Position numbers and translations under genes: made by a program. From NCBI GenBank assembly GCA_016841005.1, contig JAEORG010000346.1, positions 1 to 7,080 on the forward strand: a stretch of DNA of 7,080 bases, in the 5' to 3' direction. The DNA comes from Candidatus Thorarchaeota archaeon. GTDB lineage: Archaea > Asgardarchaeota > Thorarchaeia > Thorarchaeales > Thorarchaeaceae. Shown here piece after piece: positions 2,653-7,080 of this stretch. Below the pieces are notes generated by a model. The model searched no databases. It was not told where the DNA came from and saw only the letters and a program-made list of their open reading frames with translations. Position 1 is the first letter of the stretch, and every line of letters starts with the position of its first letter.

Positions 2653-4758
2653 TTGTCAAATAAGAAAAACGACCACAAGGCGAATCGTCTAATCAAGGAA
2701 AAGAGCCCGTACTTGCTACAACACGCCTATAATCCAGTAGATTGGTATGCTTGGAATGACGAGGCGTTTGAGAAAGCAAAATATGAGAACAAACCTATCT
2801 TCCTATCCATAGGGTACTCTACATGCCATTGGTGTCATGTTATGGCTCACGAATCATTTGAAGATGGTCAAGTAGCCAAACTCATGAATGATGCATTCAT
2901 CAATATCAAAGTTGATCGAGAGGAAAGACCTGACATCGATAAGATATACATGCAAGTCGCACAGATGATGACTGGTCGCGGTGGATGGCCTCTCACTATA
3001 ATTATGACTCCTGATAAGAAACCTTTCTACGCGGATACATACATTCCAAAAAAGATGAGATACGATAAACCTGGAATGGTTGATCTCATACCAAGAATCG
3101 ATGAACTTTGGAAGAATGATCAAGAAAACATTTCAGATGTTGTAGAAAGAATCATGGACGCTCTAGATACATCAAAGATTGGTGTTCGAACCAGACAGCT
3201 TGACATAGATGACATAGAGAAAGCCTTCGAATCTTATACTCAGAGATTTGACCAGAAGAATGGAGGATTTGGTGGGGCTCCAAAATTCCCCTCACCACAC
3301 AACTTGTTGTTCTTGTTAAGGTACTGGAAAAGAACGAATGATGCATGGGCATTACACATGGTAGAGAAGACATTGACTGAAATGCGACTTGGAGGAGTCT
3401 ATGATCAAATTGGTTATGGATTTCACAGATATTCAACTGATGCCCACTGGCTGATTCCGCATTTCGAGAAGATGTTGTATGACCAAGCCATGCTACTCAT
3501 GGCGTATACTGAAACTTACCTCGCAACCAAGAACCAGCAATATGCTCAAGTTGTACATGAAGTTGTTGAATATTTAGTACAAGATATGCGCTCACCGGAA
3601 GGAGCATTCTATTCAGCTGAAGATGCAGATAGTGAAGGTGAAGAGGGGAAGTTCTATGTTTGGGACTATGAAGAGATTGCATCCATATTGAGTGGAGAGG
3701 AGAGAGACCTCTTCATTAAAGCATTCAATATCAAAGAAGATGGTAATTTTCTCGATGAAGCCACAAGAAAGAAGCATGGTGCAAACATCCCTCATCTTAA
3801 GTTACATCCAGCTAAATTGGCTGAATCACTTGGAGTTGAGAGAGGCAAACTGAAAGACACCATTTCTAATGCAAGGCAGAAATTATTGGATGTCAGATCT
3901 GGAAGAATACGTCCTCACCTAGATGATAAAATTTTGACAGATTGGAATGGACTCTTAGTGGCAGCTATTGCGAAGGCAGCTAGAGCAATGGGTGATGATG
4001 ATTACGCGGACATCGCAAAAGAGGCAATGGAGTTCATTCTACAGAAAATGAGGAAACCAAATGGCGCTTTACTTCATAGATACAGAGAAGGCGAAGCTGC
4101 AATAGATGGGTTTCTGGATGATTACGCATTTGTCATTTGGGGTTTGATAGAACTCTACGAAACAACATACGAAACAGTCTATCTTACTGAAGCTCTAGAA
4201 CTACTCAAGATCCAGCTCTCTCGGTTCTGGGATCCTGAGCATGGAGGATTCTTCTTCACGGACAATAGCTCTGAAGCCCTTCTTCAGCGTCAGATTGATG
4301 CATATGATGGAGCAATACCTTCTGGAAATTCAGTTTCAATGTATAACCTAGTACGGCTCGGTCGAATGTTAGGCATTCCAGAATATGAAGAACAAGCTGC
4401 CCAAATTGGGGCACGTTTCTCAGGTATTATCGAACAGAGTATGGGAGGATTCTCAATGATGCGTTCCGCCTTGGATTATGCCCTTGGACCAACAAACGAA
4501 GTTGTAGTCGCAGGGGATTCTGACGACAAAAATACATCCAAGATGCTTCGGGAGTTAGAAACCATATTTCTCCCAAACTTGACAGTACTACTAAGGAGCA
4601 CACCAGATCAAATTGCTATACTGAATGAGATAGCTTCCTATACGAAATTTCATGAACCAATCAACAACAAAACAACAGCTTTCGTCTGCATTGAACAGAA
4701 CTGCAAGTTACCTACAAGTGAGAAGGACCAGATGATGGAAATGCTAAGCAAAACCTAA
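2653..4758 (+). CDS. YyaL/SPATA20 family protein (DUF255): thioredoxin-like domain plus (alpha/alpha)6 barrel
   Basis: A 701-residue protein, full length for the COG1331/YyaL family (human relative SPATA20). The N-terminal family motif [21 protein letters not shown] is at about residues 11-31. The thioredoxin-like domain (about 12-170) carries the CxxC motif in STCHWCHVM (C58, C61), then [10 protein letters not shown] (88-97) and GGWP (110-113). Residues about 185-660 form the helical barrel related to N-acylglucosamine 2-epimerases and six-hairpin enzymes. Landmarks there are [10 protein letters not shown] (204-213), [15 protein letters not shown] (247-261), [10 protein letters not shown] (270-279), [15 protein letters not shown] (323-337), LTDWNGLL (428-435), DGFLDDYAF (485-493) and SGNSVS (557-562). 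The C-terminal pair C679/C684 with KLP matches the usual family ending. There is no signal peptide, so it is probably cytosolic. All expected motifs are intact; the reaction is not established for the family. The start is TTG with GAGGGG upstream. Confidence 0.95.
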
Positions 4759-4847: not shown

Positions 4848-6992
4848 ATGTCATCCAATTTCAAGCGTGTAGTGCTTCCACTAATGTTTTTCTTTGTTCT
4901 AATTATGCCTCTCTCTTCTGTTCCATATATAGTAGAAAATTCGACTGCGTCGACTCCGAGGACTCTTGCACAGACTGATCAATATCGGGTGTATCATGGG
5001 GGTTCAATAGATTCAGTGCGTTTCGTAGAATATAACAATCTTACAGATGCATTGGAAGCTATAGATTCGGGTGAGGCTGATTTACTTGGGCATCGAATCA
5101 ATGCATCTGACTATGCACTTGTTGACAGCTATAGTTCAGTGGAACAGGAATGGGTATATGACGAACTCTCAACGCTTCTGTCCATCAATGCTAAGTATTA
5201 TCCATTGAATAATTTTCATCTTAGAAGAGCGATAGCTTTTGCAGTTGATAAGGAAAATATCTCAGAAACTGCAATGAATGGAACTGTCGATCCTATCGAT
5301 CTTGCAGTGCCGCTCTACAATGAGTATTCCTTAGAATCAACAGAAGGTGGTTTGTTTTATGATGCGAATATTGCTAGTGCGATTATGGAATTAGCCCTTG
5401 CTGGAATGCTCGATGTTGATGATGATGGCGTTGTTGAAGGACCTGATGGTAGTGAAGTCGATTTCCCCTTCTGGTATCCATGGGACACACCAGGAATGAA
5501 TGACACAGCATCAATCATCTCACAAAATCTTCTAGATGTTGGAATTAATAATACACTTTTACCTCTGACTTCTGCTAATCTTCAGTATCAGGTAGCCCAT
5601 CACAACCTCACATACGGATTGGCACTTTATGAACAGAAGCTGAGTCAATTTGGATACGACTGGGTAGCAATGACATTTCATAGTTTTGCGCAAACAATCG
5701 TAGGCCATAATATTGCCAATATCTTCAATGCGCAGCTGAATGATCTTGCAGAACGATATTTGGATGAGGTATACTTAGAAACTGCAGAGGAGATTGGTCA
5801 AGAAGCGATGCTTGCAGTAAGAGACCTCTGTCCGGTAGTTCCACTTTTTACATATAGATGGCTTTCAGTATATTCAGAGCAGAATTTCGAAAATTGGCCA
5901 GAAGATAAGAATAGAGGGGTACTAAGTCTTTGGACACCTGTTACAGTTACCCCCACAGGTTCCTCAAGCGAACTTGTAGTAGCAGTCCTTCCTCAATTTT
6001 TTGATTATTTCTTCAGGTCCCTCAATCCATTCTTCGGAAATCAAACAATTGGTCAAGACTGGATTGAAGGTATGTTTAATCCATACTTACTGGTGTATGA
6101 TTCTCCTATTGCAACAAGCCCTGATGGATTTCCAGTGCCTAGACATGCAACTTCTTGGGAGATGCAATTCTTAGGAATTGCGCCAGATATCGCGTATAAT
6201 CAGTCCCGAGTGAATTTCTATTGTGACCCAAATGCAAACTGGACTGATGGAGAAGTAATGAATGCGCAGGACTACAGATTCACTTTCGAATATTATAGCA
6301 ATAATTCCTTGACCGAATATGAGCATCTAGGTGATACTGTCAAAGTTACAGGAGATTACCTTGCAGGGATATTGGATGAATACAAAGATATGTTTCTATA
6401 TCGACGGATAGGGGAACTTCCGATTCTTCCTGAGCATGTCTGGACTGACCGAGACCCAGATACTTGGGATCCAACTGTCACACAGGCCATAGGGTCAGGA
6501 CCATTTCTGTTCTCCCAGTTCACTCCTGGTTCCGAACTAGTACTGTCTGCAAATGATGATTATTATCCTGAGATTGATAATGAGGTCCCAACACTCAGGT
6601 CACTCTCTATAATACCTGAAGAACCAATACCTGCAGAGAGCGTTGTTTTTAGGGTTTTTATTGATGATAGAAGCATTGTTAATAATGTGACAATCATCTA
6701 CACGTACCAGGTTGGACAGATTAACTTCACAGAATCACAGATGATGATATCAGATGCTACAGGTTTTGAAGCAACAATACCTGCAAGAGTGACTGCTACA
6801 ACGGTATCATGGCGAATAGAAGCAACTGACATCTGGGGCAATAGAGCTATTGTAGCAAGTGGTTCCTATAGTAGATCTATAACTACAGATGTTGACGGTT
6901 TCGAGTCAACCCTTTTACTCGCTTTAGAAATATCAGGAGTTGCACTTGCAGTGCTTATTGCAATCATCCTAATTCGCAGAAGACGAAAGTAG
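4848..6992 (+). CDS. Membrane-anchored solute-binding-like protein (SBP family 5) with halves in permuted order
   Basis: A 714-residue secreted protein with a C-terminal anchor. A signal peptide is clear: FKR, then a hydrophobic core at 9-25. Residues about 46-362 look like the second half of an OppA/DppA-type binding protein: DALEAIDSGEADLLG (67-81), LRRAIAFAVDKENI (125-138), a Ca-loop-like DVDDDGVVEGPDG (189-201), and AERYLDEVYLETAEEIGQEA plus PVVPLF near 301-334. A linker PVTVTPTGSSSE (364-375) follows. Residues about 376-590 resemble the first half: SLNPFF, PRHATSWEM, NANWTDGEVMNAQDYRFTF (462-480), LPILPEHVW (524-532), GSGPFLFSQF (549-558), NDDYYPEIDN. An Ig-like domain (598-678), a helix (688-709) and the tail RRRRK complete it. 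There are fourteen N-x-S/T sequons. The family binds peptides or other solutes for ABC importers; the ligand is unknown and no permease or ATPase gene is adjacent. Confidence 0.88.
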   Translation: MSSNFKRVVLPLMFFFVLIMPLSSVPYIVENSTASTPRTLAQTDQYRVYHGGSIDSVRFVEYNNLTDALEAIDSGEADLLGHRINASDYALVDSYSSVEQEWVYDELSTLLSINAKYYPLNNFHLRRAIAFAVDKENISETAMNGTVDPIDLAVPLYNEYSLESTEGGLFYDANIASAIMELALAGMLDVDDDGVVEGPDGSEVDFPFWYPWDTPGMNDTASIISQNLLDVGINNTLLPLTSANLQYQVAHHNLTYGLALYEQKLSQFGYDWVAMTFHSFAQTIVGHNIANIFNAQLNDLAERYLDEVYLETAEEIGQEAMLAVRDLCPVVPLFTYRWLSVYSEQNFENWPEDKNRGVLSLWTPVTVTPTGSSSELVVAVLPQFFDYFFRSLNPFFGNQTIGQDWIEGMFNPYLLVYDSPIATSPDGFPVPRHATSWEMQFLGIAPDIAYNQSRVNFYCDPNANWTDGEVMNAQDYRFTFEYYSNNSLTEYEHLGDTVKVTGDYLAGILDEYKDMFLYRRIGELPILPEHVWTDRDPDTWDPTVTQAIGSGPFLFSQFTPGSELVLSANDDYYPEIDNEVPTLRSLSIIPEEPIPAESVVFRVFIDDRSIVNNVTIIYTYQVGQINFTESQMMISDATGFEATIPARVTATTVSWRIEATDIWGNRAIVASGSYSRSITTDVDGFESTLLLALEISGVALAVLIAIILIRRRRK

Positions 6993-6994
6993 TC

Positions 6995-7080
6995 TTATTG
7001 ACTGGGAGTTCTCTTGATTTTCATTATCACCACAGCGGCGATTACAACGACAACAAACCCTGCGACGATTAACAAAGGAC
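6995..7080 (-). CDS. 3' end of a minus-strand gene encoding a C-terminal membrane anchor (partial)
   Basis: Only the last 28 codons and the TAA stop (6995-6997) are in the window; the gene continues past the right edge. The visible residues form one hydrophobic helix beginning PLLIVAGFVVVVIAAVV, then a short basic tail IMKIKRTPSQ. This is the ending of a single-pass C-terminally anchored protein, like the large gene it faces. The codons are strongly purine-first with many GTN valines, as in a real coding end. Its stop is 2 bp from the stop of the solute-binding-like gene, so the two are convergent with no room for separate terminators. The body of the protein is out of view, so no function can be given. 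Confidence 0.7.
   Translation of the reverse strand, partial: PLLIVAGFVVVVIAAVVIMKIKRTPSQ

Follow-up and report, generated by a model that had tools for sequence, protein, structure and literature searches.

The window analysed here, by which we mean the whole stretch of 7,080 nucleotides from Candidatus Thorarchaeota archaeon (assembly GCA_016841005.1, contig JAEORG010000346.1), carries on its forward strand an open reading frame (ORF) at 4848..6992, which encodes a protein of 714 aa and matches solute-binding protein (SBP) family 5. Read from its first residue to its last, the product opens with a hydrophobic segment, passes through two stretches matching PF00496 and a part rich in beta strands, and ends with a membrane-type helix and a basic tail. 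The start is a putative signal-peptide-like segment (residues 1-25; 4848..4922), modelled as a helix over residues 5-23. It is followed by a stretch corresponding to the C-half of an SBP, here in first place (residues 53-366; 5004..5945), which contains a DVDDDG loop (residues 189-194; 5412..5429) whose D189, D191 and D193 are invariant in an alignment of 43 rows. Between the two matched stretches lies a short linker from the native C-end to the native N-end (residues 367-373; 5946..5966), spanned by PVTVTPTGSSSE, the linker named in the original prediction. The N-half comes in second place (residues 374-581; 5967..6590) and is followed by a candidate Ig-like beta domain or stalk (residues 582-676; 6591..6875), recognized from the strands of the model and seen in the window's subfamily; over this segment no Pfam family scored above its cut-off, an LtfC beta-sandwich being matched at E 0.11. 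A transmembrane-like helix with a basic tail, indicated by the sequence and by a model helix, closes the protein (residues 687-713; 6906..6986). Upstream on the same strand, Pfam identifies a Thioredox_DsbH/DUF255 protein (2653..4758), and the end of the window carries on the reverse strand the last 27 codons and the stop of a convergent gene (6995..7078), which, when its translation is set beside seven relatives, resembles the C-termini of a C39/BtrH_N-like neighbour family.

This protein had been predicted to be of the OppA/DppA type with its two halves swapped, and Pfam, the sequences of solved structures and a profile of native-order proteins all bear this out. The whole protein scores 131.1 bits against PF00496 (E 7.4e-38), above the curated cut-off of 32.4. 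When the halves were searched separately, the first segment (residues 46-362) aligned with profile positions 147-343 (E 7.3e-20), its later part, and the second (residues 376-590) with positions 2-148 (E 5e-16), its early part, as anticipated. PF00496 is limited to the central part of these proteins, so the query was also compared with the sequences of solved structures; phmmer placed residues 379-586 of the query on residues 7-201 of the 7ebm chain and residues 115-364 on 261-517. A native-order profile of 584 positions, built from 19 native-order proteins, aligned residues 53-366 with its positions 229-537 and then residues 414-581 with 60-225; the two pieces are complementary and abut without overlap, both order and complementarity being directly observed. 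The C-half precedes the N-half, and the domain order is not the native one. Order was assigned throughout by this profile, an earlier motif scan having left 125 of 180 proteins undecided.

The position of the cut is equally well defined. Across 172 proteins the N-half ends at a median profile position of 218 and the C-half starts at a median of 228, and this 218/228 cut, the window's own, is called type 1 below. The new chain ends fall between the N..YY motif and the strand IDSVRFVEY, in what we take, from the domain borders of DppA, to be lobe I. Of the two sides of the cut that had been proposed, VRFVEY stands, since the C-half does begin there. LRSLSII (residues 583-589) is not supported as the other side: the N-half match stops at residue 581, short of it, and the model puts it in the beta domain, where eight strand elements, one of them very short, begin with it (582-589 to 666-675). 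From the model, an Ig-like domain is the better reading of the strand elements of residues 582-676, LRSLSII first. One BLAST alignment of the N-half continues past the LRSLSII point (248 columns, 26% identity) and scored about 3 bits above the next, and this stretch may, by its sequence, be a leftover of an SBP strand.

A single-chain structure model based on an alignment of 43 rows reached a pLDDT of 87.7, and its C-half (residues 47-370) superposes on residues 204-507 of DppA. VIA-align covered little of the model outside residues 46-372. Modelled alone, the N-half reached a pLDDT of 37.9, for which the smaller alignment (14 rows vs 43) is an obvious reason.

The swapped order is conserved in a family. 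Counting the query with its 60 hits, 55 of 61 proteins have swapped halves, three are fragments of 416-442 aa that are too short to tell, and three are native; orthologues with the same order, which the original prediction had proposed to look for, are therefore present. In an alignment of the query with 42 selected homologues (41-73% identity to the query), 64 columns are invariant. Hits of the window's subfamily whose source gives an organism are from Thorarchaeota, except P0028 and P0043, which are from Lokiarchaeota. This subfamily occurs in 21 of the 227 genomes of the phylum, counting rows of at least 370 bits, the weaker rows belonging to a sister subfamily. A scan of contigs with a single protein as query found no relative, and one with the alignment as query found 16 loci of the window's subfamily. 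The sister subfamily is larger: a 602-aa member (P0058) used as query gave 945 hits, and among the 120 matches listed 118 have the same order, the other two being shorter matches with the same trend. The Ig-like domain is absent from the aligned sister proteins, which carry a linker and a membrane-type helix instead.

On the scale of the phylum, at least 56 of the 227 genomes have the permuted order (best match to the permuted model at E <=1e-70), a lower bound, because scoring was confined to each genome's best candidates; two further genomes are permuted by reading of their loci (L090, L091). The remaining genomes gave weaker matches or none, and those that were read, L090 and L091 aside, are native or of the second type described below. 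The chromosome-level record CP070761.1, from a metagenome-assembled genome, has ten PF00496 matches, which amount to two native genes (L017 and L018, one of them followed by an Opp-type permease) and four permuted ones, including the window's orthologue and a tandem pair, so that native-order paralogues were seen directly in one genome with permuted genes. Taken together, the swapped order is apparently a widespread, stable and old feature of an Asgard family. Elsewhere in the phylum, one genome has seven permuted SBP genes in tandem (L080, 2444-16216, reverse strand), which bears on how these archaea feed, and arrays of two to five genes occur at L079, L081, L082 and L085. Three giant ORFs (L096, L097 and L098; 2592, 2578 and 2299 aa) begin with a permuted SBP. 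Outside the phylum, one genome encodes an SBP with a dockerin-like tail (L130, 733-3063, reverse strand) that, as its sequence reads, looks to have the window-type cut. Among plasmids no example of the window's cut was seen: all 15 listed rows align as two pieces, and of three rows inspected, two are native and one is of the second type.

Gene neighbourhoods differ between the subfamilies. The gene order around the window's subfamily is conserved: an MBL fold gene, a Thioredox_DsbH gene, the SBP gene and a convergent C39/BtrH_N-like gene. A gene of the Thioredox_DsbH family is the immediate upstream neighbour in 10 of the 13 relative loci whose upstream DNA is available, and the C39/BtrH_N-like gene, whose end is encoded at the edge of the window, is convergent and adjacent in all 13 loci with downstream DNA (within L001-L015); the family names of these neighbours rest on Pfam for two representatives. 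No Opp-like ORF was found in the window or in the 16 loci of its subfamily, in flanks of up to 9 kb, several of which were ended by the contig, so that gene context lends no support to a transport role of this subfamily. In the sister subfamily, transporter genes were directly observed beside some members: in 6 of 18 regions, same-strand Opp-like genes lie within 2.6 kb (L071, L073, L076, L077, L078, L084), and at L076 Pfam confirmed an OppC-type permease and an oligopeptide-type ATPase. A PF00528 match on the same strand as a permuted SBP gene and within 0.4 kb of it was found in at least six of ten genomes (G181, G184, G194, G200, G211, G222); both the sister regions and these ten genomes were hand-picked, not random. 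None of ten further type 1 regions (L090, L091, L096-L103) has a same-strand Opp-like gene within 2.6 kb.

We consider it very probable that the window gene encodes a circularly permuted family 5 SBP, held at the cell surface by means of a signal peptide, an Ig-like stalk and a membrane helix, and sequence and model together make a tethered binding protein the most likely reading. Such a protein would be exported by its N-terminal signal peptide and held at the surface by the stalk and the C-terminal helix, as sequence and model suggest. The short linker would join the native N- and C-ends, and the chain would fold into a two-lobed binding protein that closes on an extracellular solute, possibly a peptide, an oligosaccharide or something similar; family 5 SBPs bind peptides and also nickel. 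The protein might then hand the solute to an Opp-type ABC importer whose genes lie elsewhere in the genome, or report its presence.

The same permuted fold could have no importer role at all and act as a tethered receptor, a scavenger or an adhesion module, perhaps linked to the C39-like peptidase. To this reading the 16 loci of the window's subfamily without an Opp-like ORF, the convergent neighbour adjacent in every locus with downstream DNA and the permuted SBP in front of three giant sister ORFs (2299-2592 aa) all lend weight. Against it, some sister genes adjoin Opp-type genes, the remaining conserved neighbours belong to families of general kinds (DUF255, MBL fold, radical SAM, GNAT), and orphan SBP genes can work with permeases encoded elsewhere; on balance this reading is possible but rather unlikely. 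A domain-swapped dimer, in which each chain lends its C-half to the N-half of another, would be in keeping with the shortness of the joining linker; the single-chain model is of high confidence, the relative placing of the halves aside, and in SBPs the two native chain ends are near each other in lobe I, which leaves the dimer very improbable. Although the order of the halves would by itself be compatible with a chance fusion or misassembly of two partial SBPs in a decaying gene, conserved orthologues rule this out for practical purposes: the order is common to 54 of 60 hits, of which the 42 aligned ones are 41-73% identical, and is present in a chromosome-level record and in many assemblies, while the halves are complementary, do not overlap and yield a high-confidence model.

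As to the origin of the tethered, permuted binding protein, a tree was inferred from 80 hand-chosen rows, with the pieces placed on common profile columns and the groups named after the tree had been seen. All but one of the 42 type 1 rows group together (UFBoot 84; SH-aLRT 91). In the first trees the remaining row, L090, stood among native proteins; the second origin of type 1 that this hinted at was set aside, a clade of all 42 rows not being rejected (AU p 0.69). The window's subfamily is a tight group with a support of 100 and adjoins the sister subfamily, which itself has a support of 95 when L090 is left out. The most likely origin that we infer is a tandem duplication of the SBP domain inside the gene, followed by loss of the first N-half and the last C-half. 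In permuted proteins the signal-peptide and membrane-type segments hold their positions, and for this reason the duplication was probably internal: the SBP domain would have been duplicated and its outer halves lost, with the signal peptide and the anchor left in place. Two tandem forms were met. At L087 (1423-4389, forward strand) tandem SBP copies lie in one frame, the second being cut by the contig end, and at L088 (141-3089, forward strand, near the contig start) the end of one SBP copy and a full copy share a frame. These possibly represent the intermediate type that duplication and end loss need; their proteins fall outside the type 1 group of the tree, and they attest that forms of this kind exist, not that one of them gave rise to type 1.

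A different permutation of SBP family 5, called type 2 here, was met among weaker matches. Its chain starts behind a D.DGDG loop, which corresponds to the DVDDDG loop of the window protein, runs to the native C-end, continues with the N-half and stops just before its own start; in 28 proteins the cut lies at native profile positions 373/377, and matches to columns 552-583, those of the native anchor, occur in many type 2 proteins. Among the 120 proteins listed from a search with a type 2 query, 28 are type 2, one is partially so and 91 are native; native members of the subfamily are 49-61% identical to the query over 50-66% of its length, and type 2 members align over the full length. Judged by the matched stretches, none of the 60 PDB chains shown has the type 2 order, the matches being confined to residues 203-553 or less of the type 2 protein compared. 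Examples of type 2 are L045/L092, L052/L093, L062/L094, L066/L095, P0181-P0203, L104, L136, L163 and L166. Within the phylum, Opp-type genes lie near the type 2 SBP gene in all four regions read (L092-L095). Outside it, a second and presumably archaeal phylum has type 2 in at least 3 of 29 genomes (L135, L136, L163). Among plasmids 3475 records matched. Of the 30 listed, 27, counting that of the query itself, align in one piece; by their genus names these type 2-like records presumably belong to alphaproteobacteria and haloarchaea. On one alphaproteobacterial plasmid, the type 2 gene (L166) is annotated as an SBP and adjoins a permease. In the tree, from which the bacterial and haloarchaeal proteins were left out, a single clade of all 12 type 2 rows was rejected (p 0.0007), and one of the 11 rows without L092 was not (p 0.498). 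Because the 12-row clade was rejected, type 2 required more than one change.

Considered jointly, these observations allow a tentative reading, to which we give clearly less than even credence, that family 5 permutes repeatedly, that the moved ends re-site the membrane tether and that tethering drives permutation. If so, there would be one old Asgard cut, that of the window, and a second one with at least two origins, spread over archaea and alphaproteobacteria. The signal peptide and the anchor would stay fixed, and the tether would move on the SBP, elsewhere on lobe I or to lobe II, altering how the protein meets its permease; both this re-siting and the lobes assigned to the cuts are predicted. 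With native paralogues in the same genome, such proteins form a natural experiment in which chain topology, membrane tethering and the docking of permeases can be studied. The named database records call permuted SBPs ordinary binding proteins or hypothetical proteins, and routine annotation hides such cases. To our knowledge, few natural circular permutants of large two-lobed proteins have been described. In the literature searched, mainly open-access and with bioRxiv outside its scope, no description of circular permutation was found for family 5, as judged by titles and abstract openings; as far as was found, the permutation is new for this family, and a permuted binding protein of another class was already known.

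Both halves of the window protein are homologous to the OppA/DppA class (PF00496), whose SBPs we take to be those of cluster C, and its C-half superposes on DppA; the window protein differs from this class in its swapped halves, its Ig-like stalk and its C-terminal membrane helix. Its best solved relatives by sequence are the structures of the Vibrio chitooligosaccharide-binding protein (7ebm, E 2.3e-15; 1zty, E 2e-14), which, unlike the window protein, have the native order. The type 2 proteins are likewise permuted SBPs of family 5, with Opp-type or permease genes at the five loci inspected, and differ in their cut, which lies at 373/377 behind the D.DGDG loop instead of at 218/228. The nearest parallel outside the family is TpMglB-2 (Tp0684) of Treponema pallidum and its relatives, a natural permuted binding protein of an ABC transporter that is tethered to the membrane and for which a 'cluster Bc' has been proposed (PMC4990184). 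According to that source, TpMglB-2 binds glucose and changes shape, closing on its ligand, and tethering was suggested as a factor that may favour permutation (PMC4990184). As described there, it is a type I/cluster B sugar binder of other organisms, whereas the window protein belongs to PF00496; it nevertheless shares with the present proteins, which appear to be tethered at the C-terminus, the character of a permuted and tethered SBP.
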